NCBI GenBank assembly: GCA_031275035.1
Contig: JAISPH010000197.1
Coordinates: 1-15,197 of the forward strand
Source of the DNA: Treponema sp.
GTDB taxonomy: Bacteria > Spirochaetota > Spirochaetia > Treponematales > Breznakiellaceae
DNA length: 15,197 bases
Direction of reading: 5' to 3'
Shown here piece after piece: positions 1,172 through 15,197 of the stretch. The translations under genes were made by a program, and so were the position numbers. Position 1 is the stretch's first letter, and the number at the start of each line of letters is the position of its first letter. Under the pieces are notes generated by a model. It did no database searches, was not told where the DNA came from, and was given only the letters and a program-made list of their open reading frames with translations.

Positions 1172-1202
1172 CCTCTGGAAACCCCGGTTGGGCTTTCAGA
1201 GG
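1172..1202 (-). terminator. Candidate terminator after aroE
   Basis: On the minus strand an imperfect 13-bp stem (arms beginning CCTCTGAAAGCCC and ending GGGTTTCCAGAGG, two mismatches) lies 20 bp after the aroE stop and is followed by a modestly T-rich TTCCCTTTAG. The stem is strong but the U-tract is weak, so termination is plausible rather than certain. Confidence 0.5.
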
Positions 1203-1221
1203 CTCCGGGGTAAGAAAATCT

Positions 1222-2076: not shown

Positions 2077-2143
2077 GATGAACCTCCCCATTATAGAATT
2101 TTGAAACGGCTCTTCTACTATATATCTTTACGCCGGTTTGGGA

Positions 2144-2149
2144 TATAAT
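2144..2149 (+). promoter_or_regulatory. Minus-10 box directly before manC
   Basis: A perfect TATAAT at 2144-2149 lies 10 bp before the manC ATG. No convincing minus-35 box is seen at 16-18 bp. Transcription would begin around 2156, leaving only a few nucleotides of leader and no room for a ribosome-binding site, so the mRNA may be near-leaderless. Confidence 0.45.
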
Positions 2150-2159
2150 GTAATTATCC

Positions 2160-3323
2160 ATGTTTGACGACTGCATTATAATGGCCGGGGGATCCGGGAC
2201 CAGGCTCTGGCCGGCAAGTACCTCAAGACTGCCCAAACAGTTTCTCTCCATCGCCGGAAGGGGCAGCTTCTTCCGGGCCGCCCTGGAACGGGCCCTGGGG
2301 GTGATCGACATCCGGGGAGACGGCCGGGTAATTATCATCGCAGGCAAAGGCCATGTGCCCCACATTATCGAAAGCTGCCGGAATTGCTGCGGCGAAAACA
2401 TGAACCGCCTGGTCCTGATCCCCGAGCCGGAGGCAAAAAATACCGCCCCCGCCATAGCCTGCGGAACCCTCTATACGGACTGGGTATCCGGCCGGGACCG
2501 GAATATTCTGGTCCTTACCAGCGATCACATCATCGAACCGCTTGATATCTTTAAGGCCAATGCCGCCGCGGCCGCCGCCTTTGCCCAGCAGGACAAGCTG
2601 GCCGTTTTTGGAATCATCCCCAAGGCCCCCGAAACGGGCTATGGGTACATCGAAGCCGCGGAGACCCTGACCATTCCCCATCAGCGGGTAAGCCTTAAAC
2701 GCTACGACAAGCCCGCGGAGCCTGCGGCGTTCAAGGTGGCCTCCTTCCGGGAAAAGCCCGATCAGGCCGCGGCAGAACAATTCCTTAAAAGGGGGAACTT
2801 TTACTGGAATTCGGGGATGTTCGCTTTTTCCTCCCGTTTTCTCCTGAAAGAATTCAACCGGAACGCCCCGGAGCTTATCACCCCCTTTGAAAAACTGGTG
2901 GCCCCCAACGAACAGTCCTATGCGCTTGAACAGGGGTTGCGGATCCTTAAAAACTGGACCGGTCTGGAAGAAGCCTACAGGACGGTCAAGGGCGTTTCCT
3001 TTGACTATGCCATTGCGGAAAAGTGCGCCCAGACCATTATGGTGGCCGCCGGTTTTGAGTGGTTTGATGTGGGGAGCTGGGATGAATACATCAAACTGGC
3101 GGATGATCCCGGCTCTGAGGTGTACTGTTCCGGCTCGGAAAACTGCTTTGTGGATGCGGATATGCCCGTGGCCCTCTGCGGGGTTGATGACCTTATCGTG
3201 GTGGTCCGGTCCGGCAGCGGCGGCTCTCCCCCGGCGGTGCTGATTGCAAAAAAGGGAGAAACCCAGCGGGTCCGGGCTATTGTGGAAAAAATAAAAACAG
3301 CGGGGAGAAGGGATCTGCTGTAA
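2160..3323 (+). CDS. manC: Mannose-1-phosphate guanylyltransferase
   Basis: Makes GDP-mannose from mannose 1-phosphate and GTP, a cytoplasmic step feeding glycan and polysaccharide synthesis. The 387-residue protein begins with the nucleotide-binding GGSGTRLWP (10-18) and KQF. It also has EPEAKNTAPAI (89-99), SDH (121-123) with the metal-binding Asp, PETGYGYIE (157-165), FREKPD (196-201), WNSGMF (216-221), FDYAIAEK (281-288) and WFDVGSW (301-307). All are standard for the family. It is the short form without the C-terminal phosphomannose isomerase domain of bifunctional ManC proteins. The ATG at 2160 is the only start compatible with the N-terminal beta strand, and it has no ribosome-binding site, only a TATAAT 10 bp upstream. 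It is followed 18 bp later by ackA, which could be cotranscribed. Confidence 0.93.
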   Translation: MFDDCIIMAGGSGTRLWPASTSRLPKQFLSIAGRGSFFRAALERALGVIDIRGDGRVIIIAGKGHVPHIIESCRNCCGENMNRLVLIPEPEAKNTAPAIACGTLYTDWVSGRDRNILVLTSDHIIEPLDIFKANAAAAAAFAQQDKLAVFGIIPKAPETGYGYIEAAETLTIPHQRVSLKRYDKPAEPAAFKVASFREKPDQAAAEQFLKRGNFYWNSGMFAFSSRFLLKEFNRNAPELITPFEKLVAPNEQSYALEQGLRILKNWTGLEEAYRTVKGVSFDYAIAEKCAQTIMVAAGFEWFDVGSWDEYIKLADDPGSEVYCSGSENCFVDADMPVALCGVDDLIVVVRSGSGGSPPAVLIAKKGETQRVRAIVEKIKTAGRRDLL

Positions 3324-3341
3324 ATTTTATGGAGGTTTTTG

Positions 3342-4679
3342 ATGGTCATTCTCACATTAAACTGCGGTTCTTCCTCCGCTAAATACCAGGTTTACGACTG
3401 GGACGCCAGGGATATTCTGGCGGTGGGCATTGTGGAAAAGGTTACCCTGGGGGGTTCCTTTATCAGCCACAAGGTGAAAGGTAAAGAAGAGTATACCGCC
3501 GAACATGACTGCCCCACCCATACGGATGCGGTGGATCTGATCATAAAAACCCTGACCGATAAGGAGCAGGGGGTAATCAGCGACATGTCGGTGATCAAGG
3601 CCGTGGGCCACCGGGTGCTCCACGGGGGGGATAAATTTACCAAGAGCGTTATCGTGGACGATGCGGCCATGGCGGCCTTTAACGAGGTCAGGGATCTGGG
3701 GCCCCTCCACAATCCCGCCAACATCATGGGTATCGAGGCCGCCAGGAAAGTGCTGCCCCGGGTTCCCCACTGCGCCGTCATGGATACCGCCTGGCATCAG
3801 ACCATGCCCCCGGAAGCTTTCCTCTATGCGGTGCCCTACGAATGGTACGAGAAGTATTCGGTCCGCCGCTATGGTTTCCACGGAACCAGTTTTCTCTACA
3901 CGGCAAAGCGGGCTGCAGCGCTGCTGGGAAAGGATCCCTTCCAGACCAATCTGATCATAGCCCACCTGGGAAACGGCTCTTCAATTAACGCCGTCAAAAA
4001 CGGCTGTTCCTTCGATACCTCCATGGGGATCACCCCGCTTGAGGGGCTTGTCATGGGAACCCGTTCCGGGGACGCCGATATGGCCATGCCCTTCTATGTG
4101 ATGCGGAAAACCGGCATGAGCGCCGCGGAGATGGAAAATACCCTGAACAAAAAATCCGGCCTTTTGGGGGTTACGGGCAAATACGCCGACCGCCGGGATA
4201 TTCAAAAGGCGGTTCTTGCCGGAGACACGCGGGCCGCCCTGTCCCAGGATATGGAAGCCCACCGGGTGAAAAAATACATCGGCGCATACCAGGCGGTGCT
4301 GGGCCGGGTAGACGCCCTGGTCTTTACCGCCGGGGTCGGAGAATTCGCCGCCTTCATGCGGAAGAAAATCCTCGACGGCCTTGAGGGTATCGGCATTGTA
4401 TACGATCCGGCAAAGAACGAGATGGCCCATACCCGGAACGCCGAAACCATCATCAGCAGGGACGAATCCAAAATACCAATCTACATCATCCCCACCGACG
4501 AAGAGCTGGTGATGACCGAGGACGCCTATGCCCTCATGGCGGGAACCTACGACATACACACCAAGTTCAGTTATTCCTTCCAGAGCAGGGACTATGTGAA
4601 TAAGGGCCGCGCCGAAGGGCTCAAAGAAGAACTGGCAAAGCACCCTGAACTTAAATCGATCATCGCAGTTCCCAAATAG
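3342..4679 (+). CDS. ackA: Acetate kinase
   Basis: Interconverts acetyl phosphate plus ADP with acetate plus ATP, the ATP-yielding last step of acetate fermentation. Motifs: NCGSSSAK (7-14), GHRVLHGG (89-96, Arg91), [16 protein letters not shown] (147-153, catalytic Asp148), RRYGFHGTS with His180, HLGNGSS (208-214), MGTRSGD with Arg241, and GVGE. The start at 3342 follows TGGAGG by 6 nt. Oddities: the final His of the usual GFHGTSH is Phe184, the common GIGEN reads GVGEF, and the common TNEE reads TDEE. The protein is 445 residues, about 40 longer than usual, with a charged C-terminal tail after residue 400. No phosphate acetyltransferase gene is in the window. The function is secure despite these substitutions because the core catalytic residues remain. 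Confidence 0.95.
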
Positions 4680-4726
4680 GGCCGTTTCAAAGCGGCGGCC
4701 CTGGAATATTCCGGCCCGGGGGCGTT

Positions 4727-5308
4727 TCAGGAAGCCGGGGACAAGAGTACCTGCTGGGCCAGTTTCTTCGCTTCCCCTTCGTTAAGGAATTTGGCGGTAA
4801 TCGCCGCGGCCCATTCTCCGGCGGTTCCCGCCGCCCGGCTGGTGATAAAGCTGCCGTCTACCACTACCCTGTCTTTGGACCACTGGCCGCCCCGGACCTT
4901 GTCTTCCATGCCGGGGAAACAGGTAAAACGGCGGCCCTCCAGGAGCCCCAGGGGGGCCAGTATCACCGCAGGGGAAGCGCAGATAGCGGCTATTACCTTT
5001 CCCGCGGCGGCCATTTCCCGTATCAGCGTACACGCCGGGGTGGAGGCGGCTATATTGGCCGCTCCGGGCATGCCGCCGGGAAGCAGGATGCCGTCCCAGG
5101 CCTTGGCGCCGCCCTGGCCAAGGCCGGCAAGTTCGGTAAAGGTTACGTCGGACATTACCTGGATACCGTGGGCTCCCCTTACCGCCGGATTGGGGCCCAC
5201 CGAAACCAGGGTTACCTCAATGCCGGCCCGGCGGAGATAATCTGCGGGGGTCAGAGCCTCGACCTCCTCAAATCCGTCGGCTAAAAGCAATAACACCTTT
5301 TTCTGCAT
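4727..5308 (-). CDS. DJ-1/PfpI family protein
   Basis: A 193-residue member of the DJ-1/ThiJ/PfpI superfamily, a Rossmann-like glutamine-amidotransferase-type fold. Family members act as chaperones, glyoxalases or possible deglycases, and the exact role here cannot be read from sequence. The conserved Glu lies in GFEEVEA (E15), the flexible PGG at 77-79, and the nucleophile Cys110 in AAICASPAVIL at the nucleophile elbow. The later segment SRAAGTAGEWA corresponds to the SxGPGT helix. The ATG at 5308 follows GAGGAG by 8 nt. It is convergent with ackA across 47 bp, where only a short GC stem without a T-tract is seen. Length and motif order match the DJ-1/YajL branch. Confidence 0.88.
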   Translation of the reverse strand: MQKKVLLLLADGFEEVEALTPADYLRRAGIEVTLVSVGPNPAVRGAHGIQVMSDVTFTELAGLGQGGAKAWDGILLPGGMPGAANIAASTPACTLIREMAAAGKVIAAICASPAVILAPLGLLEGRRFTCFPGMEDKVRGGQWSKDRVVVDGSFITSRAAGTAGEWAAAITAKFLNEGEAKKLAQQVLLSPAS

Positions 5309-5379
5309 ACGACAAACTCCTCATAGGATATTAACCGTCCCGCGGCGGACAACCTGGCGGGCATATCAATAGTATAAGC

Positions 5380-5408
5380 TTGAACTTCTCCGTTTCCTAC
5401 CCTAAAAT
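5380..5408 (+). promoter_or_regulatory. Sigma-70-type promoter for the PHP gene
   Basis: TTGAAC (5380-5385), a 17-bp spacer and TAAAAT (5403-5408). The predicted start near 5415 lies just upstream of an AGAGGG ribosome-binding site and the short ORF at 5427. Confidence 0.6.
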
Positions 5409-5426
5409 GACGGAAAGAGGGCGATA

Positions 5427-5501
5427 ATGAACTATGTTTTTATGACCGATGAAACCCGCCGCCGCTTCCAAGCCGCCGTTAAGCCATACCCGGACCTTTA
5501 A
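5427..5501 (+). CDS. Short 24-residue ORF upstream of the PHP gene
   Basis: A tiny ORF starting MNYVFMTDETRRRFQAAVK and ending PYPDL. It has an AGAGGG ribosome-binding site 6 nt before its ATG and a promoter just upstream, and its TAA lies 2 nt before the ATG of the PHP gene, which itself lacks a ribosome-binding site. The arrangement suggests that translating this peptide delivers ribosomes to the next start (translational coupling). It could also be the remnant of a longer gene. No family is recognised. That it is translated is an inference. Confidence 0.4.
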   Translation: MNYVFMTDETRRRFQAAVKPYPDL

Positions 5502-5503
5502 TC

Positions 5504-6391
5504 ATGCGTTTATCCTGTCTCCATACCCACACCAATTTCTGCGACGGCGGGGATGATATTGAAACGATGATCCGCACCGCCTGGGAGCGGGGGTTCGCCT
5601 CCATCGGTTTCAGTTCTCATGCGCCGGCTGCCAAAAAAACGGGGATGATCACGGATTGGCACCTCTCCGAGGACAGGCTGGAAGAATACTGCGGCGCCGT
5701 CCGCCGGGCCCGCCGTGCCTGGGAGGGGAAGATAGCTGTGTTTCTGGGCCTGGAAGCGGACTATATCCGGGGGCTTATAAGCCCTGCAGACCGGGACTTT
5801 CAGGAACTAGGCCTGGATTACATCATCGGGTCCGTCCACTATATTCTTTCCCCCCGGGGAGAGCCGGTTACCATAGACGGCCCCCCGGAAAGTTTTGAAA
5901 AGCTGGTCCGGGAACAATTTGCCGGAGACGGGGAAAGGCCGATGCGGATCTATTGGGAGGCCCTCCGGGAGATGATCCGGGCCGGAGGCTTTGATATTCT
6001 GGGCCATGCGGATGTGATAAAGAAGAACAACCCCGGGGGAATATGGTTTTCCATGGAAGGGGAATCTTACCGGGAAGAGCTTGAGAAAACGGCGGCTCTG
6101 CTGGGTTCGGAACTGCGGGCCGGACGAAACCTGACGGCGGAGATCAACACCGGAGGACTCAACCGGAATAAAACCCCCGACACCTACCCTTCCCTGCCCC
6201 TGCTGCGGCTTTTTGCGGCGGAGGGCGTACCGGTTACCATCAGCGCCGACGCCCACCGGGCCTCCGAACTGGGGGGACACTATGACCGGGCCCGGACAAA
6301 CCTTCTGGCGGCGGGCTATACCGCATCGGTCTTTTTTGAGGGCCGGCGGGCCGGCGAGCCCCTCTGGACCGCGGAAAGCCTGCGGGATTAG
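5504..6391 (+). CDS. PHP-domain phosphoesterase, histidinol-phosphatase (HisJ/HisK) type
   Basis: A 295-residue PHP-family metallo-phosphoesterase. HisJ-type members remove phosphate from L-histidinol phosphate in histidine synthesis. The trinuclear metal site is complete: HTHT (His7, His9), SSHAP (His39), GLEADY (Glu84), SVHY (His112), GHAD (His168), and SADAH (Asp249, His251). EINTGGLNR (from Glu213) matches the HisJ pattern. The start at 5504 lies 2 nt after a short ORF, with no ribosome-binding site of its own. No histidine-pathway genes are nearby, so the substrate could be another phosphomonoester. It is convergent with the DksA-type gene, with 13 bp between the stop codons. Confidence 0.85.
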   Translation: MRLSCLHTHTNFCDGGDDIETMIRTAWERGFASIGFSSHAPAAKKTGMITDWHLSEDRLEEYCGAVRRARRAWEGKIAVFLGLEADYIRGLISPADRDFQELGLDYIIGSVHYILSPRGEPVTIDGPPESFEKLVREQFAGDGERPMRIYWEALREMIRAGGFDILGHADVIKKNNPGGIWFSMEGESYREELEKTAALLGSELRAGRNLTAEINTGGLNRNKTPDTYPSLPLLRLFAAEGVPVTISADAHRASELGGHYDRARTNLLAAGYTASVFFEGRRAGEPLWTAESLRD

Positions 6392-6404
6392 GGCCGGAAC
6401 GGCG

Positions 6405-6761
6405 CTACCGGTTCCGTCTTTCCTCCGCGGTTTTGCACTCGATGCACATAAGGGCATAGGGTATGGCCTCAAGGCGGTCCCTGGGGATACGCTTGCCGCA
6501 CTTCATACAGAGGCCGTATTTGCCCTGCTGTATTCTGGTCAGGGCGGACTCAATTAACTTGAGTCTTTTAAGATCCTGGGAACCGATGGCTTCTATCATC
6601 TTCCGGTCAATGTCATCGGATGCGATATCCGCCAGATCCTTGGGGTCCATGCCCTCCACAATTTCCTTAAAATCTTCGCTGCTGGCGATTAAATTGGAGA
6701 CAATCTCCGCCTTGAGTTCTCCCAGGGATTTCTCCATGCGTCCAAGGAATTTTTGGTCCAT
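6405..6761 (-). CDS. DksA/TraR-type zinc-finger transcription factor
   Basis: A 118-residue protein of the DksA/TraR family, which binds RNA polymerase through the secondary channel and tunes initiation, often with ppGpp. The N-terminal two thirds are helical and charged (predicted coiled coil), with paired acidic residues DD at 49-50 near where the coiled-coil tip would fall. The C-terminal four-cysteine zinc finger is complete: C85xxC88 and C106xxC109. The ATG at 6761 follows a G-rich GGGGGG by 6 nt. At 118 residues it is shorter than E. coli DksA (151) and nearer to short spirochaetal and firmicute members. Target genes cannot be told from the window. Confidence 0.87.
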   Translation of the reverse strand: MDQKFLGRMEKSLGELKAEIVSNLIASSEDFKEIVEGMDPKDLADIASDDIDRKMIEAIGSQDLKRLKLIESALTRIQQGKYGLCMKCGKRIPRDRLEAIPYALMCIECKTAEERRNR

Positions 6762-6886
6762 AACCAGCCCCCCTATGCCATTTTTCCGTATGCGCTATTC
6801 TTTAAGAGCCCTTTTCAAAACCCCGTCCGGTACAAAGCTCCGGTCCGGTCAAAAGTCCCTTAACAGAAACAATAGACTTGTTCAAA

Positions 6887-7004
6887 AACCCGGTTGGTTC
6901 TCGACCACGTCTCCCAAAAAACGCGGATTTCTTAATGAAATCTGCGTTTTTTGTTGTTTTTAAGCGGAATTTGTCCGGAAACCGAGGTTTCCGGACAACT
7001 CTAT
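6887..7004. repeat. 118-bp dispersed hairpin repeat, copy 2
   Basis: Same length as 636-753 and alignable without gaps. Stem A: AACGCGGATTTC (6920-6931) with GAAATCTGCGTT (6937-6948), one G-T wobble, followed by a T-tract as in an intrinsic terminator. Stem B: TTGTCCGGAAACC (6971-6983) with GGTTTCCGGACAA (6986-6998) around GA. Compared with copy 1, both arms change together so that pairing is kept. The 5' stem of copy 1 (625-659) is not preserved here. It lies in the gap between the divergent dksA-type and pentapeptide genes. Confidence 0.82.
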
Positions 7005-7032
7005 ATACCCGGGATCTTACTCCTGGGCATTA

Positions 7033-7156
7033 TCGATTATAATCGAAACTTTTTCAAAACTTGGTTAATTTTGAAAAAGTTTTTAAAAAACCGGCCAAAG
7101 ATCCGGGTTTTTTTCACAAATTAAGGCTGTTTTTTCAAAATAGATCATTTTGAAAA
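7033..7156. other. Battery of hairpins including a strong terminator
   Basis: Four palindromes follow copy 2 of the 118-bp repeat: TCGATTATAATCGA (7033-7046); AACTTTTTCAAAA (7047-7059) with TTTTGAAAAAGTT (7069-7081), a perfect 13-bp stem; AAAAAACCGG (7085-7094) with CCGGGTTTTTT (7103-7113), a GC-core stem with A- and T-tracts as in a bidirectional intrinsic terminator; and TTTTCAAAAT (7132-7141) with ATTTTGAAAA (7147-7156). No coding frame is supported in the 500-bp gap 6762-7261. Both flanking genes point away from it, so terminators here do not serve an obvious upstream gene. Confidence 0.65.
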
Positions 7157-7225
7157 GGCCCCAACCGGCAATCGGGGTACATTGCCGTACATTTGCATTT
7201 TTGTCAAGCCGTCAAATCCGGCCCC

Positions 7226-7255
7226 TTGCAAAGTCCCGCCGGAGGGGCCTATTAT
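7226..7255 (+). promoter_or_regulatory. Promoter for the pentapeptide gene
   Basis: TTGCAA (7226-7231), an 18-bp spacer and TATTAT (7250-7255). The predicted transcription start coincides with the ATG at 7262, so the transcript may be leaderless. A GGAGG at 7241-7245 is 16 nt from the ATG and would not be transcribed from this promoter. Confidence 0.4.
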
Positions 7256-7261
7256 AAAAGC

Positions 7262-7849
7262 ATGTTTAGCATTATTCCCTGCGCGGCCGGCTGCGGGCGG
7301 GCCGCCCTGAGCGGTTCCCAGACCTGTGCAATCCACGCTGCGGACCAGAACAAGGAAACGGCCCGGATAACGGCCTATATCCTTGAACGGGAGGTAATCA
7401 AGGATCTCTGCGCCCCGGATCTTCGCTTTGAAAGCGTTGATTTTTCCCGCCGGAGCTTTTACGGGTGCAGTTTCCACGGGGCAGCCTTCTCCATGTGCCT
7501 CTTTACCCGGACCTCCATGAGAATGTGTTTCTTCGATTTTGCCTTCTTCGACAACTGTGATTTTTCCCACAGCGATCTTCAGTTTATGTCCTTCTCGGGA
7601 TCGGGAATCAGGAACTGTACCTTCGAGGGTTCCGAACTGGTACACCTTAATTTCGGCGGCGCCCATATATCCGAAAGTACCTTTAACGATTCAAATTTGT
7701 ATAACAGCCGCTTCATCGGAGCGGAGATGGAATACTCCGATTTTATCGATTGTAATACCAAAAGAACCTATTTTGTAAAAACCAAGCAGGAGGGCATTTC
7801 CTTCAAGTCTTCCAATACTGCGGAAGCGGTATTTGAACTGGAATTCTAG
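7262..7849 (+). CDS. Pentapeptide-repeat protein with N-terminal Cys/His knuckle
   Basis: A 195-residue protein. Residues from about 55 to 180 consist of pentapeptide repeats with the usual central Leu/Phe every fifth residue (such as CSFHG, CDFSH, CTFEG, STFND, SRFIG, SDFID), which fold into a right-handed quadrilateral beta helix. The first 30 residues hold C-x3-C-x10-C-x2-H (CAAGCGRAALSGSQTCAIH), which looks like a small zinc knuckle. Pentapeptide proteins range from gyrase mimics to scaffolds, and the role here is unknown. The ATG at 7262 is preferred over an upstream in-frame TTG at 7193 because the zinc motif starts right after it and promoter elements lie between. The metallo-beta-lactamase-fold gene follows 35 bp later and may be cotranscribed. 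Confidence 0.82.
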   Translation: MFSIIPCAAGCGRAALSGSQTCAIHAADQNKETARITAYILEREVIKDLCAPDLRFESVDFSRRSFYGCSFHGAAFSMCLFTRTSMRMCFFDFAFFDNCDFSHSDLQFMSFSGSGIRNCTFEGSELVHLNFGGAHISESTFNDSNLYNSRFIGAEMEYSDFIDCNTKRTYFVKTKQEGISFKSSNTAEAVFELEF

Positions 7850-7884
7850 GGGAGATCGCCGGCGGCGCGGCGGGGAGAATCATT

Positions 7885-8568
7885 ATGAAACTTTTTTTCC
7901 ATTATTGCCTGTTTGGTTTCAGCAACTGCTATATTTTGGGAAGTGATTTTTCCTCCGGCGAAGAGGAGTCTCCAAACGGGGAGTTTCCAAAACGGGAATC
8001 GCCGCCTTCACCGGAGGCTGCGCCACAGGATGCAATCATCATCGACCCCGGCGGCATGGATGAGGAGATCCTCAATTTTATCGAGCAGAATGAATATACC
8101 CTCCGCGGCATACTGGTAACCCATGATCACCGCAACCATGTCCACGGGCTGCGGACCATCAAACGGATCTACGATGCGGATATCTACGGGGTAAATCATG
8201 TCATCAGGAATCACAAGACCAACATAGTAAAAGACGGGGATGTCCTCAACCTGGGACCTTTCCGCATTGAGGTAATCTCCGTGCCGGGCCATTCTTCGGA
8301 TTCCGCCGTTTACAGAATAGAACATCTCCTCTTTACCGGAGATGTCCTCAGCGCGGGCCTGGTGGGAAGCACCGCCAGTTCCTACGGAGCGGCGGTACAG
8401 ATGACCGCCCTGAGGAGCAAGATCCTCTCCATACAGGGAAACATTGTGGTGCTTCCCGGCCACGGCCCCCCTTCCTGCCTGGAGACTGAACGGCGTTTCA
8501 ACGCGGGGATACTGAACTATGATCAGAATAAGAATCAGCGTCCCGTCTTCAGCGCAGAGATCTGGTAA
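7885..8568 (+). CDS. Metallo-beta-lactamase-fold hydrolase with altered metal motif
   Basis: A 227-residue MBL-fold protein of the glyoxalase-II-like size class. The metal motif HxHxDH reads H80-D-H82-R-N84-H85, so the Asp that normally binds the second metal is Asn. The remaining ligands are present: VPGH (His136), FTGD (Asp153) and LPGH (His203). An acidic, Pro/Ser-rich stretch at residues 23-48 is inserted between the first two strands, where relatives have a short turn. GGGGAG lies 7 nt before the ATG. The 3' end overlaps the convergent lipoprotein gene by 20 bp. The substrate is unknown. The Asn change may weaken two-metal catalysis, alter metal preference, or be a family variant. Confidence 0.83.
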   Translation: MKLFFHYCLFGFSNCYILGSDFSSGEEESPNGEFPKRESPPSPEAAPQDAIIIDPGGMDEEILNFIEQNEYTLRGILVTHDHRNHVHGLRTIKRIYDADIYGVNHVIRNHKTNIVKDGDVLNLGPFRIEVISVPGHSSDSAVYRIEHLLFTGDVLSAGLVGSTASSYGAAVQMTALRSKILSIQGNIVVLPGHGPPSCLETERRFNAGILNYDQNKNQRPVFSAEIW

Positions 8569-10426
8569 TCCGGTGGACCCTTCCCCCTGAAAACCCCCAG
8601 CGCTGATCCACATAGGCGGAAAAGGCCGCCGCTTCCCGGGAAAAGTCCCGCTCCAGTTCGGGCCAGGTTCCCGCGGCTTCGTTCTTTACAGGCAGAGACC
8701 GCCGCCGCCAGCTTTTTTCAAGCCTGCCCGCCAGGGTCTTGCCGAAGTATTCCGCCGCCAGGGCCGGAGACTGCTGGAGGCAGTAAGCCATCAGCTCGTT
8801 CACCATCAGGTAAGCGTCTGTAAGATCGTACTGGGAATAGTCAAAATAGGAGAGGATAAAGCGTCTTGCCGTTTGGGGAAGGGCTTCCCAGCGGCGGCGG
8901 CTGAATTCCCGGAAATCCTCATCAATAAAAAAGAGGCCGTGAAAACTTTCGTGAGCCATAAAGAGGCCCCGGAGATAATCGTTGGATTCCCTGGATATGG
9001 AAATGACCGCCCCCGTACCGGGAACGATGCCATCGGCAGGGATGCCGCCGGCAGGGATGCCGCCGGCAGGGACGCCGCCGGCAGGGACGCCGCCGGCAGG
9101 GACGCCGCCGGCAGGGACGCCGCCGGCAGGGACGCCGCCTTCACGGATAATGCCGTTATCCAGGAGAATCCGCTTCAGTTCCTGTTCCTCGGGAAGGAGG
9201 AGAAAATTCGCCGTCCTGGCGGCTTCAAAGAACCGGGCCAGATCCTCCGCCCTGTAATCGTAGGCATTCCAGCCGTGAAGCCCGGCAATTTCCGCATCCG
9301 GCGTAAGGCGGCCCCGGAAACCGGCTTTTTCCACAAAGAAGGCAAGCCGCTTAAAGAAACGGTCCTGCAGGGCATAGTCGGCGGTATCGAAGATCAGCAC
9401 CAGGGGAAACCGGTCCCAGCGGAAGATTTCAAAACGGCTGTCCCGCCAGGCCCGCCGGGGATAATCGATGATCAAGCCGGGGTCCGCCGGGACCGGTTCG
9501 GGGAAGACCGGCGGCTCCACATGAGTAATCCTGATGGATGCGCCCCGCCAATCGGCAAGGATCAGAGGATAGGGATTGGCGGAAACCACCCCCGGAGGAA
9601 TGACAAAACTCTCCGGAGGCCCGCCCGGAGGGGCCCGGTACTCGTAACGGCTTCTTCCCGCATCCAGCAGGGCCCCTCCCTCCACGCCGTCCACGGCTAT
9701 TTCCTTCATTCCGGCTATGCGGTACTCCTCGGGAGGATCGATTGCCAGGGCGGCGCCGTCCCGGAAAACAAAGGGGCTTGCCGAAAGCAGGATGGCGGAG
9801 GAACCGCCGGAGGAAAGAAGATCCTGATCCCATCCAAACCAGCGGGAAACCAGGCTGAAGGAACGGACTTCAAGGATCAGGTTTCCCGGAGGCGTCTGCC
9901 CCCCCTGATCCTGGTTTTGTTTTACTGAAAGGACTATCCGTTCCAGCGTTCCCTCTACGGGCAGGGCATACCGGATAAGGCCGGGAACGGAGTCTGATCC
10001 CAGGAACGAAAGATCCTGGGGCAGAATCCAGGATACGGCCCCCAGGGTGCAGATCAGCTGATACCGGGAAGCAAAGTCCCGCCGGAGGGCAAGCCGATCC
10101 TCCGCGGAAAGTTCCGGCCCTTCAGGACGCAGGGTATATTCCAGTTGAAAGGAAAGGTCCGGCGGAAGAACAGCCCCCTTGAGGACATACTCAAGTTTGC
10201 GGGGTCTGGAGAACGAAAGCAGCCCCGCGGCGGCCTCCCTGGACCGGGCCGACAGGGTAACGCCGGGACCAAAACCGGCCAGGGAAAGGGCCGGTTCATA
10301 ACGGCAGGAACCCAGGAGGAGGAACAGCGTAAACAGCGCCGGAAAGAAACGGCGGCCTCCATGCCGGCGGCCTCCATGCCATTGGCATTTCCTTTCGGGG
10401 ACTATACGGTCCGCGGCGCGCCTCAT
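8549..10426 (-). CDS. Lipoprotein with HExxH metallopeptidase motif and tandem GGVPA repeats
   Basis: A 625-residue protein. Residues 27-41 form a hydrophobic signal ending LLLGSC, a lipobox with Cys41 as the lipidation site, so it is probably attached to a membrane facing the periplasm or outside. HESFH at 492-496 is an HExxH zinc motif, and NELMAY with Glu544, 48 residues downstream, could supply the third ligand as in gluzincin peptidases. Residues 50-420 are not recognised. Just before the catalytic region, residues 430-464 consist of seven GGVPA/GGIPA units (15-bp repeats, 9026-9139). The same repeat in the other orientation encodes HGGRR twice at residues 17-26, before the signal. The start overlaps the stop of the upstream gene (ATGA). 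Peptidase activity is inferred from motif only. Confidence 0.72.
   Translation of the reverse strand: MRRAADRIVPERKCQWHGGRRHGGRRFFPALFTLFLLLGSCRYEPALSLAGFGPGVTLSARSREAAAGLLSFSRPRKLEYVLKGAVLPPDLSFQLEYTLRPEGPELSAEDRLALRRDFASRYQLICTLGAVSWILPQDLSFLGSDSVPGLIRYALPVEGTLERIVLSVKQNQDQGGQTPPGNLILEVRSFSLVSRWFGWDQDLLSSGGSSAILLSASPFVFRDGAALAIDPPEEYRIAGMKEIAVDGVEGGALLDAGRSRYEYRAPPGGPPESFVIPPGVVSANPYPLILADWRGASIRITHVEPPVFPEPVPADPGLIIDYPRRAWRDSRFEIFRWDRFPLVLIFDTADYALQDRFFKRLAFFVEKAGFRGRLTPDAEIAGLHGWNAYDYRAEDLARFFEAARTANFLLLPEEQELKRILLDNGIIREGGVPAGGVPAGGVPAGGVPAGGVPAGGIPAGGIPADGIVPGTGAVISISRESNDYLRGLFMAHESFHGLFFIDEDFREFSRRRWEALPQTARRFILSYFDYSQYDLTDAYLMVNELMAYCLQQSPALAAEYFGKTLAGRLEKSWRRRSLPVKNEAAGTWPELERDFSREAAAFSAYVDQRWGFSGGRVHRITRSLR
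9026..9139. repeat. 15-bp repeat array, locus 1
   Basis: Six perfect or near-perfect units of gatgccgccggcagg/gacgccgccggcagg at 9041-9130, flanked by one diverged unit at 9026-9040 and a partial one at 9131-9139. Written in phase with the other loci the unit is GGCAGGGAnGCCGCC on the plus strand. In the minus-strand gene it encodes GGVPA/GGIPA. The array lies about 28 codons before the HExxH motif. Confidence 0.92.
10351..10380. repeat. 15-bp repeat array, locus 2 (inverted orientation)
   Basis: Two identical units of ggcggcctccatgcc. Their complement GGCATGGAGGCCGCC fits the consensus of the other loci, so this array is inverted relative to locus 1 although both lie in the same gene. It encodes HGGRR-HGGRR before the signal peptide. 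Confidence 0.85.
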
Positions 10427-11211
10427 AGAGCGACAATGCCCCGGGCGATAAGCTGGGCCAGGGAATATTTCCGCTCTATGGTTATTTCCTTTCCGGTACT
10501 GAGGAACGATTCAAATTCGGCCCGAAAGGATTCGGGCAGAACCGGCAGTTCCAGCACCTGCTTATAGTAACCCCGGTGAGACGGTTCAAAACGACGGTTG
10601 ATGCAGAACAGGGTAAGACAGGCGGTTTTGATGAACAGAGACGAGGAAATAAGATAGTTGAAACCGTCCTCCTGCAGAAGGGCGGCGCCGAGATCCCCCA
10701 GGAGATGTTCCATCTTGGACTGATGGGTCTCCCGCATGACCTGCCAGAATGTGTCGTCCAGGCTGAGGAGCCGTTTCCTGATATTCTGTATCCAGTTGTG
10801 CCGGCAAAAAAGGATCTCCCCATGGGCAAGCCGGTAGTAACCGTAGGTCCCCGAATGCTTGATCAGCCAGAGGGATTCCTGGTTGGTATCCGCCAGCGCG
10901 ACAAATTCGTCGGTTTTCCGGGTGGACTTGTACTCCAGCCGTACCGGAATATCCCCAATAAGGAAACGATCCTTGCTGTCCTGGTTTGAAACCTCAAAGG
11001 CCGCCACATCGTTCCCGTACTGACGGCAGCGTTCTTCCGCCCCGGGGATGACCCCCGTATAAAATACATCCAGAATAAGGGCAAAATAAGGGTCCAGGGT
11101 ATCGGGCATGGCGGCTTCGTTCAGGGTAATGCACTCCACCCCTGTCCACCGGGAAATTATTCCGGTAAAACGATCCACCAGCACTTTGGTCTTATATTTC
11201 ATATATGGCAT
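10423..11211 (-). CDS. Unknown protein, first gene of the lipoprotein pair
   Basis: A 262-residue soluble protein with no signal peptide or membrane segment. I do not recognise it firmly. The N-terminal half has alternating strands (DPYFALILDVFYTG, then RFLIGDIPVRLEYKS), and the C-terminal half is helical and aromatic (FNYLISSSLFIKT, INRRFEPSHRGYY, VLELPVLPESF), a layout that recalls nucleotidyltransferase-fold proteins with a helical domain. The canonical GSxxxxxDxD motif is not visible, so this is only a suggestion. The start may be the ATG at 11211 or at 11202. A TATACT box (11217-11212) adjoins the former, which would favour the latter on a near-leaderless transcript. It overlaps the lipoprotein gene by an ATGA and is divergent from the gene at 11241. 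Confidence 0.7.
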   Translation of the reverse strand: MPYMKYKTKVLVDRFTGIISRWTGVECITLNEAAMPDTLDPYFALILDVFYTGVIPGAEERCRQYGNDVAAFEVSNQDSKDRFLIGDIPVRLEYKSTRKTDEFVALADTNQESLWLIKHSGTYGYYRLAHGEILFCRHNWIQNIRKRLLSLDDTFWQVMRETHQSKMEHLLGDLGAALLQEDGFNYLISSSLFIKTACLTLFCINRRFEPSHRGYYKQVLELPVLPESFRAEFESFLSTGKEITIERKYSLAQLIARGIVAL

Positions 11212-11240
11212 AGTATATCATAGGTTTGAGTTTGTCAGTC

Positions 11241-11918
11241 ATGCTGAAAGCGCCGCTATTAGAAAATGGCATATTGAAAACGCCGGCCTCAGGCGCCGTT
11301 CTCCGTTTCGCCGTCCTCATCCCCCACCGGGACAGCTTAAAACCGCTGAGAACCCTGAGCCGCCGTCTCTTTGCGGCGGGTTTTCCCGGAGCCTTTTCCT
11401 TCCCTCCGGCAACGCCCCTGGCCCTCCTGTCCCGGCCCTTAAGCCGTGGAGAATTGAGAGAGCTGGCGGCGGCTCTGCGGGAAAGTTCCGCGGACCGGGG
11501 CGGGATTATCACCGCAGGTCCTGCAGCGCCGGTATCCCTGTCCCCGGCGCTTCCCTGCCGAAACGAAGGACCGGACCCCTGGGGACTTAGCCCCTGGGGA
11601 TTCAGCTTCTGGGGACCCCGGCTGGATCTGGCCGTTCCCGCAGTAATCCCCGGCGCGATCCGCCGCTTTCCCGTGCCCGTCCTCTGCGCCGCCCTTATCC
11701 GCAGCGGTACGGGCGTTGCCGGCACGGAGGCCGCCGGCATGGACGCCGCCGCGGAGGGCCTGCTTCCCTTTTCCTTCAGGGCGGCGGCGGCGGCCAATAT
11801 GAGCTTTACGGCCCTGGAATCGGGAGAACCGGGCTATTCTTTTATCTGGAAGACCGGGGAACCCCGCTGGCTCCCCCGGCCCGGAAGACGGACACCGTTA
11901 AAGGAGACCCCCGGATGA
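11241..11918 (+). CDS. Unknown protein upstream of the YggU-like gene
   Basis: A 225-residue, Ala/Pro/Arg-rich protein that I do not recognise. A strand-like FAVLIPHRDSLKPLRTLSRR starts the conserved-looking part, and FWGPRLDLAVPA follows after a Ser/Pro/Trp-rich linker. The opening vaguely recalls 2H phosphoesterases (LigT), but neither HxT motif is present. A 15-bp repeat pair (11721-11750) encodes AGTEAAGMDAA near residues 160-170. That the frame is real is supported by its ATGA overlap with the YggU-like gene, whose ribosome-binding site AAGGAG lies inside this gene. The start is uncertain: the ATG at 11241 has only a weak upstream GAG, and a TTG at 11226 is an alternative. Confidence 0.65.
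   Translation: MLKAPLLENGILKTPASGAVLRFAVLIPHRDSLKPLRTLSRRLFAAGFPGAFSFPPATPLALLSRPLSRGELRELAAALRESSADRGGIITAGPAAPVSLSPALPCRNEGPDPWGLSPWGFSFWGPRLDLAVPAVIPGAIRRFPVPVLCAALIRSGTGVAGTEAAGMDAAAEGLLPFSFRAAAAANMSFTALESGEPGYSFIWKTGEPRWLPRPGRRTPLKETPG
11721..11750. repeat. 15-bp repeat array, locus 3
   Basis: Two units, GGCACGGAGGCCGCC (11721-11735) and GGCATGGACGCCGCC (11736-11750), in plus orientation inside a plus-strand gene. They are read as GTEAA-GMDAA, a different frame from locus 1. Confidence 0.85.
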
Positions 11919-12220
11919 ACTGTTTCAGGCTGTCGGAGAATAAGATATACCTCGATATCAGGGCTGTGCCGGGGGCCTCAAAATCCCGGCTTATGGGGGT
12001 AAAAGAGGGAAGGCTCCGGGTCCGAATCGCCGCCGCCCCCGAAGACGGCAAGGCTAACCACGAACTCCGCGCCTTTCTGGCAAAGCTGCTGGATTGTCCC
12101 ATGAAGGACCTGGTCCTGCAATCGGGGGAAAAGTCCCGGCTTAAAACCCTGGTCCTCCCCATCGCCCATAAGGACAGGCTGCATCAGTTGCTGTCCGAAT
12201 CTGCGGAGGGTGCACCCTAA
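11915..12220 (+). CDS. YggU/DUF167 family protein
   Basis: A 101-residue member of the DUF167 (YggU) family, small single-domain proteins of unknown function found across bacteria and eukaryotes. The diagnostic order is visible: VPGASKSRLMG near the N-terminus, then GRLRVRIAAAPEDGKANHELRAFLAKLL with the invariant A-P-x-D/E-G-K-A-N motif, then a strand and helix containing SGEKSRLKTLVL. Its ATG overlaps the preceding stop (ATGA), and AAGGAG lies 8 nt upstream, so the two genes form an operon. It is convergent with the cyclase-like gene, with 25 bp between the stops. A gene symbol is not given because the family name is generic. Confidence 0.88.
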   Translation: MNCFRLSENKIYLDIRAVPGASKSRLMGVKEGRLRVRIAAAPEDGKANHELRAFLAKLLDCPMKDLVLQSGEKSRLKTLVLPIAHKDRLHQLLSESAEGAP

Positions 12221-12245
12221 CCAGGGAGCCGGAACGGACCGGATT

Positions 12246-13307
12246 TTACCGCCCGGCAAGCTCCCCGGAACAGGTAAAGCGCAGGGAGTGTCTCAGGTTC
12301 CGGCCTTCAAAGGACCCGGCGTTGACGAACATATCCTCAAGCTGGGGGGCCAGAGCGTCCGGGGGGATCTCATCGGAGTAGGTCAGGCGGCCGCTTTCGG
12401 CGCATTTGGTCCCCAAATGAAAGATAAAATTAACCGCATCGGAAACGACGGTGCCGGTCCTGCCCGGCGCCCGGTAGGCGGTTTTTCCGTAGTGCAGGGC
12501 AAAGGTAAAGACCGCCGGAATGGTGAGGCCCAGATTCTCGGCTATCAGAAAGGTAGAGCCCATCAGTATTTTAAGGGCCGCTTCCTCGGCGGCCCGGGCA
12601 TACTCCGCCCTGGGGGGTATCAAAAAAAGGCAGTTATCCTCGGTTTCCATCCAGAGCAGGGCCCTGGCATCCTGGAAACGGGGAACCAGAAAAGTGCGGA
12701 GCCTTCCCATAAGAACCTTGAACGAAGTTTCCCCCAGCCGGGAACGGAGGCTGGTCCTGCCGGAGAGGGCCGCATAACAGAAGAAAAAGGGCGAGACGGT
12801 TCCCGCCTTGTAGGCGTTCCAGCCGGTAAATTTTCCCGCAGGAAGCCTGGCGGCTTTGCTGACAAAGGCTTCCGCCCCCTCTCCGGAATCTTCTGCCGCG
12901 GAGGAACCGCCGGCATGGACGCCGCTGGCAGGGATGCCGCCGGCACGGATGCCGCCGGTCCTCCAGGACGCGGCCTTTTTCAGCCGCCGCGGATCGGGCC
13001 CCTTCTTTAAGAGTTTTGAGCCCAGGTAATCCGAGGCTCCCTCAAAAAAGAAGGCCGCCGGATCGACGCTGTCTTTGGGATCGATGATTCCCCATGCGGC
13101 ATGGACGCCGCCGGCATGGACGCCGCAGCGCCGTTTCAGCAGAGACAGAGCCTTTTTCGCCTCCGCCTCCGTAAACGAAGAGAGATCCAGGTAACTCATA
13201 TCCCCCTGTTCCGGGCTGTGCCTGCCCAGGGCCTCAGGGCCGAGCAGTTCGGCCCCCTTTAATCCTGGGAAGGGCGTCTTTTTCGACGAAAAAATATAGA
13301 TCTTCAT
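12246..13307 (-). CDS. Degenerate class III cyclase-like protein with repeat insertions
   Basis: A 353-residue protein, second of two cyclase-like genes. The N-terminal ~110 residues (MKIYIFSSKK, DMSYLDLSSF, WGIIDPKDSVDPAAFFFEG) look like a small alpha/beta domain, perhaps receiver-like. The C-terminal part (about 205-345) follows the layout of a class III nucleotidyl cyclase domain: LLWMETEDNCLFLIPP where active enzymes have a GD metal site, a strand ending ALHYGKTAY, and VVSDAVNFIFHLG where they have VNxAxRL. The catalytic Arg position is His, and no clear first metal Asp is seen, so catalysis is doubtful. 15-bp repeats add GVHAGGVHA (residues 62-70) and a GGIRAGGIPASGVHAGG stretch (118-134). 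The start overlaps the upstream stop by ATGA. Confidence 0.68.
   Translation of the reverse strand: MKIYIFSSKKTPFPGLKGAELLGPEALGRHSPEQGDMSYLDLSSFTEAEAKKALSLLKRRCGVHAGGVHAAWGIIDPKDSVDPAAFFFEGASDYLGSKLLKKGPDPRRLKKAASWRTGGIRAGGIPASGVHAGGSSAAEDSGEGAEAFVSKAARLPAGKFTGWNAYKAGTVSPFFFCYAALSGRTSLRSRLGETSFKVLMGRLRTFLVPRFQDARALLWMETEDNCLFLIPPRAEYARAAEEAALKILMGSTFLIAENLGLTIPAVFTFALHYGKTAYRAPGRTGTVVSDAVNFIFHLGTKCAESGRLTYSDEIPPDALAPQLEDMFVNAGSFEGRNLRHSLRFTCSGELAGR
12912..12956. repeat. 15-bp repeat array, locus 4
   Basis: Three units: GGCATGGACGCCGCT, GGCAGGGATGCCGCC and GGCACGGATGCCGCC, plus orientation, inside a minus-strand gene. They encode GGIRA, GGIPA and SGVHA, in the linker between the N-terminal and cyclase-like parts. 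Confidence 0.9.
13098..13127. repeat. 15-bp repeat array, locus 5
   Basis: Two units, GGCATGGACGCCGCC (13098-13112) and GGCATGGACGCCGCA (13113-13127), inside the same minus-strand gene as locus 4. They are read as GVHAGGVHA, just before what looks like a beta strand (WGIID). Confidence 0.88.
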
Positions 13308-14221
13308 ACCCGCTCCTGAGCCGGACGGTAAAGCCAGTACTGTTTGTTTCCGGCCGCAGACTCCGGGGTACAGAGATCCGTGATAAACTCGTCCACAGAA
13401 CCGCCGAGGTTGCCGGATATACCCAGGGAACCGGGGGGAACCGCCGATTCCAGGCTTACCGCCTGCTTGATAGTTTCATTTTTCAGGCGTTCCACCGGAT
13501 TGTCGTAGTAATAAACAGAGCCGGTATGAACGGCTATCCTGACCCGGATGGGCTTGTTCAGGGGATTCCTGAGCCGGTTATAGAAGTACAGTTCGTGGAG
13601 TATTTCCATGCCGGAAAAAACCGCATTTTGTTCCCTGCGGCCAAAGAGAAAAACCGCCAGCGCCCCGTCTCCCTCCCAGGACCAAAGCCGTCCCGCCCGG
13701 CCAATCACCGCCCTGCTGACAATGGAACGGAGGTCCCCGTAGGCCTTTTCGACGGACCCGGCGGGATTCTGCTTTACCAGGATGGAATTCCCCGCCACGT
13801 CCAGCCGGAGCACGGTCATGCGCCGCTCATCCCCGTTTTTCAGCCGCCCCCAGTTTTCGCTTATCCGCTCGTTCTGATTCTCGAAAAACTGGGAGCTTGC
13901 CTTGTCGTAAGCGTACCCCTCCTGAATCAGCCCCGCCACCACATCATTCAGGCCCCTCATGGCATAGCTGCGGCCCATATACCCTTCGTTCTCTACCTTG
14001 AGGAGCAGTTCCACAAAATCAATGAAATAACCGTCCTGAATCAGATCCGCCACAATACGCTGGGCGGCGTTTTGGTTTGAAATAGGCATGCCCTCGGTAA
14101 GCCCGGACCGGCGGTAGATATCATAACCCGGCGAAACCAATCCGGCAAAACGGATCATCACATCCACCGGCAGAGACTGCTGGAGGCATTTCCGGCAAAA
14201 ACTGGCGTTTTTTATTTTCAT
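13304..14221 (-). CDS. Class III nucleotidyl cyclase-domain protein
   Basis: A 305-residue protein, first gene of the cyclase-like pair. Residues about 133-270 match the class III adenylyl/guanylyl cyclase fold: VLRLDVAGNS with Asp141 where the first metal Asp sits, WEGDGALAVF with Asp185 at the second, and VRIAVHTGSVYY corresponding to the RxGIHxGxV strand. However the catalytic VNxAxRL motif reads TIKQAVSLE, so the Asn and Arg that stabilise the transition state are Lys and Ser, and it may be inactive or need a partner. The N-terminal 120 residues include CRKC (9-12) and a helical region and are not recognised. No membrane segments. The start has GAG 5 nt upstream. The stop overlaps the next start (ATGA), so the two proteins may work together, for instance as a heterodimer. 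Confidence 0.76.
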   Translation of the reverse strand: MKIKNASFCRKCLQQSLPVDVMIRFAGLVSPGYDIYRRSGLTEGMPISNQNAAQRIVADLIQDGYFIDFVELLLKVENEGYMGRSYAMRGLNDVVAGLIQEGYAYDKASSQFFENQNERISENWGRLKNGDERRMTVLRLDVAGNSILVKQNPAGSVEKAYGDLRSIVSRAVIGRAGRLWSWEGDGALAVFLFGRREQNAVFSGMEILHELYFYNRLRNPLNKPIRVRIAVHTGSVYYYDNPVERLKNETIKQAVSLESAVPPGSLGISGNLGGSVDEFITDLCTPESAAGNKQYWLYRPAQERV

Positions 14222-14400
14222 TGTACTCTAACAGATACATTTAATGGGAGAAAAAGTCTACCGGGCCGGAGGGGGGGAAGAAAGGGCGGGGTGTGAAGCG
14301 CGGAGAGAGCAGCGTGATGAAAGGTCCATCCGGGGGGCGGAATGGTCCGGACGCTCCAGCTTTTGAGCCGGGAACCGTTTACAACTCCCCGCCGCCAGCC

Positions 14401-14422
14401 ATATAGATGTAATTCGTCTAAT
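14401..14422. repeat. TATAGACG-type quasi-palindrome, unit 4
   Basis: ATATAGATG-TAATT-CGTCTAAT, a diverged member of the family at 893-1050. Confidence 0.6.
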
Positions 14423-14446
14423 CGGCCCTTTCCCGGAAATGAACCT

Positions 14447-14468
14447 CCCCGCCGCAGAGCGGACGGGG
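14447..14468. repeat. CCGCCGC-AGA hairpin, partial hairpin element
   Basis: CCCCGCCGC-AGA-GCGGACGGGG, a 9-bp stem with one bulged A, followed by TATCTTGTAAGCGTTGCCTTG. The hairpin matches the core of the 14525-14599 element, and the TGTAAGCGTTGC part recurs in the 15060-15132 element, so this looks like a fragment or recombinant of the same family. Confidence 0.6.
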
Positions 14469-14524
14469 TATCTTGTAAGCGTTGCCTTGATTACGAGGTT
14501 CGTTCTGCAAGGAAATTATTTACT

Positions 14525-14599
14525 GTGGGGTCTTACTGTCATTTTTTGTTGGTGTTACCAGTTTGAACCGCCGCAGAGCGGCGGGGTATTAGACCCCAC
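14525..14599 (+). repeat. 75-bp hairpin element, copy E1
   Basis: The ends GTGGGGTCTTAC (14525-14536) and GTATTAGACCCCAC (14586-14599) pair imperfectly as a long outer stem. The inside holds an AT-rich part, then GTTTGAACC, a perfect CCGCCGC-AGA-GCGGCGG hairpin (14568-14584) and GGTATTA. The order matches the element at 15060-15132 read on the minus strand. Confidence 0.65.
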
Positions 14600-14601
14600 T
14601 G

Positions 14602-14702
14602 CGAATAAAGCGAATGCACATTACATCCACCAGTCCCGCATATAGACGCAGTTCGTATATATCGCCGTCCCGCCGCTTATAGACGTATTGCGTATATATC
14701 CG
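14602..14702 (-). repeat. Inverted copy of the 895-1018 repeat mosaic, with palindrome units 5 and 6
   Basis: Contains the palindromes TATAGACG-CAGTT-CGTATATA (14641-14661) and TATAGACG-TATTG-CGTATATA (14678-14698). Read on the minus strand, 14660-14602 aligns to 895-950 with conserved blocks CGAACTGC, GGATGTAA, GCATTCG and TTTATT, and 14702-14675 aligns to 990-1018 with GATATATACGCAATACGT. Confidence 0.72.
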
Positions 14703-14744
14703 CACCAGACCCGCCGTCTTCACTCTCCTCGCTCTTTCCCCTTT

Positions 14745-15059
14745 TTAGAACCGGAAAAAGAGGCAGGTCATGTCGTCCCGCTGGGGGGTGTTTTTCCTGA
14801 AAGCGTCCAGGGCCGGAACCAGAAGGGCGTCAAGGTCTTTTCCCTCCCTCCGGCTTTGAAGAACAAGCTCGAGGAGCCGTTCATCGCCGAATTCTTCGCC
14901 GCCGGGGTTGTCCTGTTCGGTGATCCCGTCGGTGTATATGAGAAGCGCATCCCCCGGCTGTATGCCGAGCCGGAAAAGCGCCGGTTTTATATCCGGGTCA
15001 AGCCCGATGGGAAGGTTCACCCGGGTCTTCTCCAGGGCATGAAACGTTTTATTCGAAAG
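14745..15059 (-). pseudogene. 3' fragment of a SpoIIE/RsbU-type PP2C phosphatase gene
   Basis: About 105 codons of open frame. The sequence LPIGLDPD, DALLIYTDGITEQDN, EEFGDERLLELV and QRDDMTCLFFRF is the C-terminal half of a PP2C-type phosphatase domain of the SpoIIE/RsbU class, which dephosphorylates anti-anti-sigma factors or similar partners. The metal-binding Asp of YTDG and of DD are present. The N-terminal half, with the first metal Asp and any sensor domain, is missing: upstream the frame hits TAA (15068-15066) right inside the hairpin element that starts at 15060. A GTG at 15020 with a GGAG 10 nt upstream could start a short product, but half a PP2C domain is unlikely to be active. 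Confidence 0.72.
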
Positions 15060-15132
15060 TCTGGTTTAATACCCCGGAGCTTGCTCCGGCTCAAACAACG
15101 CAACGCTTACAGAAAATTGGTATTAAACCAGA
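15060..15132 (-). repeat. 73-bp hairpin element, copy E2
   Basis: Perfect 14-bp inverted ends TCTGGTTTAATACC (15060-15073) and GGTATTAAACCAGA (15119-15132). Inside is the perfect hairpin CCGGAGC-TT-GCTCCGG (15074-15089), then on the minus strand TGTAAGCGTTGCGTTGTTTG. It adjoins the truncated phosphatase gene exactly. The remaining 65 bases to the window end show no coding sequence that I can identify. Confidence 0.8.
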
Positions 15133-15197
15133 CGGTATAATAAACTTCCTATCGAACGAGCCTCCGTTCAGATCAACACAGCGTTTAAGATACCGCG

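Follow-up and report, generated by a model that had tools for sequence, protein, structure and literature searches.

A 15-bp near-palindromic repeat lies in several reading frames of Treponema genes and has its core in common with ANGGAN hairpins of the same bacterial family

A 15,197-nt stretch of DNA from Treponema sp. (contig JAISPH010000197.1, positions 1 to 15,197; referred to below as the window) contains five arrays of a 15-bp repeat unit, GGCAnGGAnGCCGCC, located within three protein-coding genes. This repeat is probably a frame-tolerant, palindromic micro-element at the level of DNA, which resembles the Rickettsia palindromic elements (RPEs) in its effect, expands in tandem by slippage and has its core in common with the ANGGAN hairpins of the family. 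We base this reading on the occurrence of the unit in multiple frames and both orientations, the existence of orthologues without arrays and the inversion in place of one core. What is new here is that, at the sequence level, the core of the unit matches predicted hairpins elsewhere in the same bacterial family, including the Rfam TD-2 RNA and a second dispersed element. Homologues of the window placed the contig among Treponema-like spirochaetes, with the termite-gut species T. primitia among the named relatives.

The unit comprises two variable bases at positions 5 and 9 (not 5 and 10, as stated in the original prediction) and 13 fixed ones, arranged as a near-palindromic 12-bp core (GGC-ANGGAN-GCC) plus a 3-bp spacer. 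The five arrays contain 7, 2, 2, 3 and 2 units (Table 1), with the unit on the plus strand at four sites and on the minus strand at the 10351 site. When up to two mismatches were allowed, 19 matches to GGCAnGGAnGCCGCC were obtained in the window, compared to a mean of 1.15 (sd 1.02, maximum 5) in 200 dinucleotide shuffles. Independently, Tandem Repeats Finder (TRF), to which the motif was not supplied, returned seven window arrays scoring at least 50, five of which consisted of this unit. The five arrays in three genes described originally were thus borne out; the largest, put at about eight copies from position 9026, was resolved into seven exact units with an adjoining decayed eighth. Four Watson-Crick pairs in the form CGGC-ANGGAN-GCCG were found in 14 of the 16 window units. 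As predicted, the unit is frame-neutral, since its length is divisible by three and no stop codon occurs in any of the six frames of the five unit variants checked.

Reading frames were tallied for 21 gene-located arrays or copies in the window and in the closest genome, that of Treponema sp. isolate Im510_bin16 (G001). Loci were kept if their best open reading frame (ORF) scored at least 15, and array 3 was added, whose ORF was assigned by hand to the gene of the 230-aa protein because homologues support this gene, although the scoring favoured another frame. Low-scoring loci (L048-L051, L056-L058, L060, L062, L067-L069, L071 and L075) were left out, as were L052 (opposite-1) and L065 (same-2) despite their high scores, because their unit belongs to an adjoining intergenic element. 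The gene copies used five of the six frames and both orientations (same-0, 8; opposite-1, 6; opposite-0, 5; same-1, 1; opposite-2, 1), with 9 copies in sense and 12 in antisense orientation to the host gene. The fifth frame is based on a single G001 unit at the array 2 site; when only arrays of at least two units were considered (10 of the 21, decayed neighbours counted: the five window arrays, L055, L064, L066, L072 at 2842 and L074), the four frames same-0, same-1, opposite-0 and opposite-1 were left. Because the unit sits in several frames, it encodes unrelated peptides at different sites, namely G(T/M/R)DAA, GGV(H/P/R)A, AAS(M/V)P, HGGRR and RHPCR. The Gly/Ala/Pro linkers proposed earlier are therefore not encoded as a single kind (VPAGG, AASMP, GTDAA, HGGRR and RHPCR all occur), and a protein-level linker as the sole cause of the repeat in Treponema was rejected on the basis of the several frames and both orientations.

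The distribution of the unit was determined by a scan for two adjacent units in genome_contigs, in which 84,980 species are represented by a single genome each. It yielded 15 loci. G001 contributed four of them, a 'Spirochaetes bacterium' (G002) two and a further Spirochaetia genome (L013) one; a pair of Bacillota metagenome-assembled genomes (MAGs) contained three, and the other five came from unrelated genomes with one locus each (Agromyces, Trueperaceae, Phycisphaerales, Microbacterium and Microcella; L001-L003, L011, L014). The same tandem pattern had 0 matches in viral_contigs, and a phage origin was rejected. A G001 contig with LBO80 proteins is syntenic with the window; the six longest aligned pieces of the two are 84-89% identical in DNA sequence. 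The genome-wide excess that the original prediction had anticipated was clear in this genome, which contains 24 exact 15-mers compared to 1 for a reversed-pattern control, and 42 14-mers (all read with their flanks) compared to 9. At least one 15-mer was present in 143 of the 195 genomes of the G001 family, mostly in few copies; G149 contained 24, compared to 3 for the control, in 4.9 Mb. The form found within arrays, GCCGGCANGGANGCCGCC, had 23 matches in 9 of the 195 genomes, 14 of them in G001 (control 1). A set of G001 contigs (C1-C22, 182 kb) excluded C2 and C15, both of which bear copies, so that the absence of the unit from it arises by construction and is uninformative; in this biased set ANGGAN hexaloops were not enriched, with 14 on 4-bp stems compared to 5-13 for nine control loops, and 1 of 192 for 6-bp stems.

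Alignments indicated that, among the orthologues examined, the arrays are insertions limited to a small clade. They appeared as gaps in the more distant aligned sequences and were absent from most of the orthologues examined outside this clade, in agreement with the earlier expectation; at array 5, 12 of the 17 aligned orthologues had no residues at the site. Distant orthologues with the same residues at the same sites, the finding that would have spoken against the original prediction, were not seen, and the nearest case is the unit-like peptide GLDAAGSGMDAAG near array 4 in P0031 (48% identity), whose frame differs from that of the window. The 625-aa protein was matched in 142 of 190 family genomes. 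Among the matches listed, the first aligned pieces mostly ended at residues 427-441 and the second started at 459-469, leaving array 1 (residues 430-464) unaligned, and proteins from G001 and G014 aligned as one piece. Between fixed anchors, the array 1 spacer measured 13-14 residues in seven orthologues from other genomes, compared to 30 in G001 (two of the nine loci were not matched by the anchors); a further anchor search, which hit 8 of 120 listed proteins, was disregarded. Copy number varied within the clade: close orthologues had, by eye, 0-3 units at arrays 4 and 5.

The LBO80 orthologues also differed in the orientation of the unit. At the array 1 site, four decayed units were present, three of them in the opposite orientation, compared to seven units in the window. 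Where the window reads GGCAGGGATGCC in array 1, the same place in LBO80 holds its exact reverse complement, GGCATCCCTGCC, with corresponding spacers (ATT/ATC), so that the 12-bp core is inverted in place at this site. The array 2 site contained one unit in the opposite orientation, the array 3 site two decayed units and the array 4 site decayed units, the latter two with their orientation kept, and no unit was seen at the array 5 site. A comparison of decayed neighbours column by column (30 units) was too noisy for ranking the columns.

The core was not confined to genes. The claim of a spread into coding regions thus holds for unrelated genes and several frames but covers part of the distribution, as the core often lies where there is no long open frame. 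The sequence GGCGGCANGGANGCCGCC was found in 65 of the 195 family genomes, with 124 matches compared to 4 for the control, and 22 of the 30 loci read (genes were not called there) had no covering open frame of more than 140 codons. In G007, for which the listing was complete, 7 of the 11 GGCGGC-N6-GCCGCC sites carried a unit loop of the ANGGAN type. The general palindrome GSCGGC-N6-GCCGCC showed no excess in most of 14 genomes (G001, 61 compared to 52; G014, 129 compared to 129; G149, 88 compared to 118). In two genomes (L112 in G008 and L115 in G014), a GGA-rich repeat between clustered tRNA genes holds GGCGGC-ARGGAT-GCCGCC.

The same hairpin core occurs in the TD-2 RNA (RF03162), whose consensus loops are AUGGAU and ACGGAU. 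Together with the match to a published protein-binding consensus described below, this qualifies the view that no family with the unit has been described. Matches to TD-2 were obtained in 83 of 190 family genomes (above the cut-off in 52), with up to at least 20 in one genome (20 candidates scored). Of 30 copies printed, 27 contained at least two ANGGA motifs within the copy and its 30-nt flanks, and the stems varied between copies. G001 itself has copies over the cut-off, with a score of 61.1 bits in L050 and two matches in the family-wide search. Under a simple ORF rule, TD-2 in the Rfam strand was mostly antisense to its flanking genes (antisense to both in 13 and sense to both in 3 of 30 non-independent copies), and the strand given in Rfam may deserve a check. 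One contig (L172, G162:C20, 2890-9668) carries seven copies in a single orientation, each of them at the junction of a pair of co-directional open frames to which it is antisense. The copies in G106 (L174-L177, L185-L191) are nearly identical, and several have the common flank CAGCGCAAGGGAT..., so that they may belong to a larger repeat. At L110-L139, the ANGGAN hairpin lies near a recurring TGGCRCATAACGT motif in several family genomes, which may resemble half of an integron-like site. Integron attC sites were considered for TD-2, as its clusters look cassette-like (G162:C20), and provisionally rejected, since the copies, by eye, have no common AAC/GTT ends. A study of Treponema integrons reports none in two termite species (PMC3607928). 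Neither TD-1 nor TD-2 was found in literature searches, and a word search of Weinberg 2010 gave no mention of them.

A second dispersed element of 72 nt, here called the GATC element, was found through the G001 flanks. It consists of an ANGGAN hairpin, a spacer, a hairpin AAAAYGC/GCRTTTT, the sequence GATC and a last ANGGAN hairpin that corresponds to the unit core (this last part was fixed by the search pattern). There were 21 copies in 4 of the 195 genomes (G001, 7; G008, 2; G081, 2; G121, 10; L199-L219; control, 0). At 14 loci searched, no Rfam family scored above its cut-off at the element; one overlapping match was obtained in L219 (E 1.1), and the L048 element is overlapped on the opposite strand by a TD-2 match that stays below the cut-off. 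In an alignment of 20 copies, from which L199 was omitted because its contig ends within it, 97.6% of the cells pair. Four pairs change on both sides (as high in 59 of 500 shuffles), and they do so in 23 cells (0 of 500 shuffles), whereas the number of pair types was not above that of the shuffles (500 of 500). Slides of the partner by -3 to +2 gave 0 cells changed on both sides, and a slide of +3 gave 3. By this sequence comparison the first predicted stem covaries, and the first loop is ANGGAN in 17 of the 20 copies. In G121, a stretch of 4 or more T comes after the last hairpin in 8 of the 10 copies. The orientation of the element relative to flanking genes was unclear (sense to both in 4 and antisense to both in 2 of 21).

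Two studies (PMC7652899, PMC4005645) give the high-affinity consensus of CsrA/RsmE as an ANGGAN hexaloop immediately on top of a short stem, with no constraint on either N, and the hcnA loop is ACGGAU. By sequence, the unit has such a hexaloop on a stem, and its free positions are exactly the two N of this consensus. Of nine genomes searched, seven encode CsrA, G001 among them, and G003 and G162 gave no match. On these grounds the units could be functional CsrA/RsmE sites, each a 14-nt CGGC-ANGGAN-GCCG hairpin plus one base, with an array that titrates CsrA or regulates its own transcript; the two ANGGAN hairpins each of TD-2 and the GATC element, the covarying first stem of the latter and its T-runs in G121 add to this case. 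We consider it unlikely, as the near-equal numbers of sense and antisense gene copies, the differing orientation at two orthologous sites (window and LBO80) and the mostly antisense TD-2 and unclear GATC orientations speak against such a role. In addition, separate hexaloops were not predicted, because the minimum-energy folds pair array units with one another (z-scores of -1.7 for seven units and -3.7 for three units, on either strand, and of -1.1 to 0.3 for the rest), and stem changes in the window and G001 contained no excess of G-U over A-C (16 compared to 17). An asymmetry of this type in Bacillota (19 compared to 2) was set aside, as it can be produced by synonymous third positions. Given the lack of strand preference, the orientation differences, the folds between units, the missing G-U asymmetry and the strand of TD-2, the resemblance to CsrA sites serves as a lead, not as an assigned function. 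A bolder scenario appears more doubtful still: a CsrA-type ANGGAN stem-loop may itself have turned into a dispersed, self-amplifying DNA element, which seeded intergenic two-hairpin RNAs (TD-2 and the GATC element) family-wide and moved into genes in one lineage, where head-to-tail copies would form in-gene or antisense CsrA sponges with a dose set by slippage and a strand set by in-place inversion.

Alternatively, nothing may have spread, and the arrays may have grown locally by slippage in loosely constrained, Gly/Ala-rich linkers, aided by selection for flexible linkers. In two Bacillota MAGs, one orthologous gene contains a similar DNA array, which is read as a degenerate (A/T)SMPA linker (L005 1185-1490, L012 3007-3415), the window holds two further 15-bp tandem repeats with unrelated units, and the G001 contig set gave 14 TRF rows, in which every period is divisible by three. 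This explanation, which we rate as improbable too, is already strained by the frame data: local slippage does not yield one sequence many times, yet unrelated genes share the 13 fixed bases, in several frames and both orientations, with wholly different peptides between sites, and the core is also present where no long open frame covers it. The Acetatifactor genome (Bacillota), one of the MAGs and without a CsrA match, contains a second, two-unit array in another gene and frame (L006 4798-4826, GKDAAGKDAAG), so that a protein-level linker fits the L005/L012 array but leaves the L006 array unexplained. The Treponema case is set apart from Bacillota by the number of sites, frames and orientations. 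The window being a single contig, an assembly or chance artefact was also considered; proteins from the jgi, ena and ncbi collections, as well as another assembled genome, have unit-like inserts at these same sites, and the shuffles gave 1.15 matches compared to the 19 observed, which refutes an artefact for practical purposes and makes it exceedingly improbable.

Under the preferred reading of a DNA-level micro-element, copies would have entered protein genes in the lineage of the window and G001, in either orientation and several frames. A unit whose length is a multiple of three and whose six frames all lack stop codons would allow such insertions to be tolerated. Within genes, head-to-tail copies would be gained or lost in 15-bp steps, most simply by replication slippage. 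Given that a near-palindrome was inverted in place, the simplest way in which the core could flip would be strand switching across the hairpin. The gene copies would, we infer, descend from the intergenic hairpins. Several observations weigh against this account. With 12-15 bp the unit would be an exceptionally short mobile element, and no copy was found that forms an intermediate between the intergenic elements and the gene arrays. The window contains no GATC element and no TD-2 match at E <= 1 with the covariance model. Some single copies among the 21 tallied are probably due to chance, as the genome-wide controls gave one 15-mer and nine 14-mers. Similar arrays can arise elsewhere, as in the Bacillota genome with no CsrA match, where two genes carry the unit in two frames. 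Finally, the 4 kb around the Y1 transposase gene of G001 contains no exact core, the one match there having a single mismatch and lying ~325 bp away.

Among known systems, the RPEs are similar in that they are palindromic DNA units found in frame within unrelated genes and also outside genes. An RPE is defined (PMC10969869) as a unit of ~150 bp with a conserved encoded peptide. The window unit differs in its length of 15 bp, its several frames, its differing peptides and its tandem expansion; the proposed likeness therefore extends to in-frame insertion with array-less orthologues, but not to size or a conserved peptide. In-frame minisatellites, or variable number tandem repeats (VNTRs), likewise consist of head-to-tail units of 3n length whose number differs between close relatives, as seen here, but ordinary minisatellites are locus-specific, whereas this unit recurs across many loci, frames and orientations. 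Repetitive extragenic palindromes (REPs) and bacterial interspersed mosaic elements (BIMEs) are dispersed short palindromes with a REP-associated tyrosine transposase (RAYT); in the unit family, unlike in these, the loop is kept while the stems vary. A REP driven by a RAYT was rejected, since no cognate Y1 gene flanked by the palindrome was found: Y1_Tnp matches were obtained in four of six genomes and none in the other two, and no exact core was present in the 4-kb stretches around the Y1 transposase gene in G001 and G008. TD-2 has only the ANGGAN stem-loop core in common with the gene arrays, as it is a 98-nt RNA with three hairpins and the arrays consist of the short hairpin unit only. The CsrA/RsmE hairpins (hcnA leader, RsmZ, CsrB) have the same hexaloop on a short stem and the same free positions but are active on the transcribed strand, within a leader, an mRNA or an sRNA, whereas the gene copies, known from sequence, lie in both orientations. 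If the preferred reading is correct, a very small repeat that spreads through genes in almost any frame would provide a natural experiment on the gain of protein segments, and the tie between TD-2 and a recurring loop that matches the binding site of a global regulator would make the function of TD-2 testable.

Table 1. Repeat arrays and their host genes in the window.
Feature	Position	Strand	Description
Host of arrays 1 and 2	8549-10426	-	625-aa predicted lipoprotein; no Pfam match
Decayed eighth unit GGGAACGATGCCATC	9020-9034	+	Adjoins array 1
Array 1	9035-9139	+	7 head-to-tail units; N5 = G, N9 = T,T,C,C,C,C,C; antisense to host gene; read VPAGG/IPAGG
Array 2	10351-10380	-	2 units; gene sense; near gene 5' end; read HGGRR
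Host of array 3	11226-11918	+	230-aa protein; no Pfam match
Array 3	11721-11750	+	2 units; gene sense; read GTEAA GMDAA
Host of arrays 4 and 5	12246-13307	-	353-aa protein; no Pfam match; annotated as class 3 adenylate cyclase in some relatives
Array 4	12912-12956	+	3 units, one differing at base 15; gene antisense; read IRAGG IPASG VHAGG
Array 5	13098-13127	+	2 units, one differing at base 15; gene antisense; read VHAGG VHAA

The two other tandem repeats of the window have 15-bp units unrelated to GGCAnGGAnGCCGCC. One is a short repeat at 7965-7996, within a gene of the metallo-beta-lactamase fold. The other is located at 11576-11616 within the gene of the 230-aa protein (CCCCTGGGGACTCAG, PWGLSPWGF), and aligned orthologues are five residues shorter at this place.

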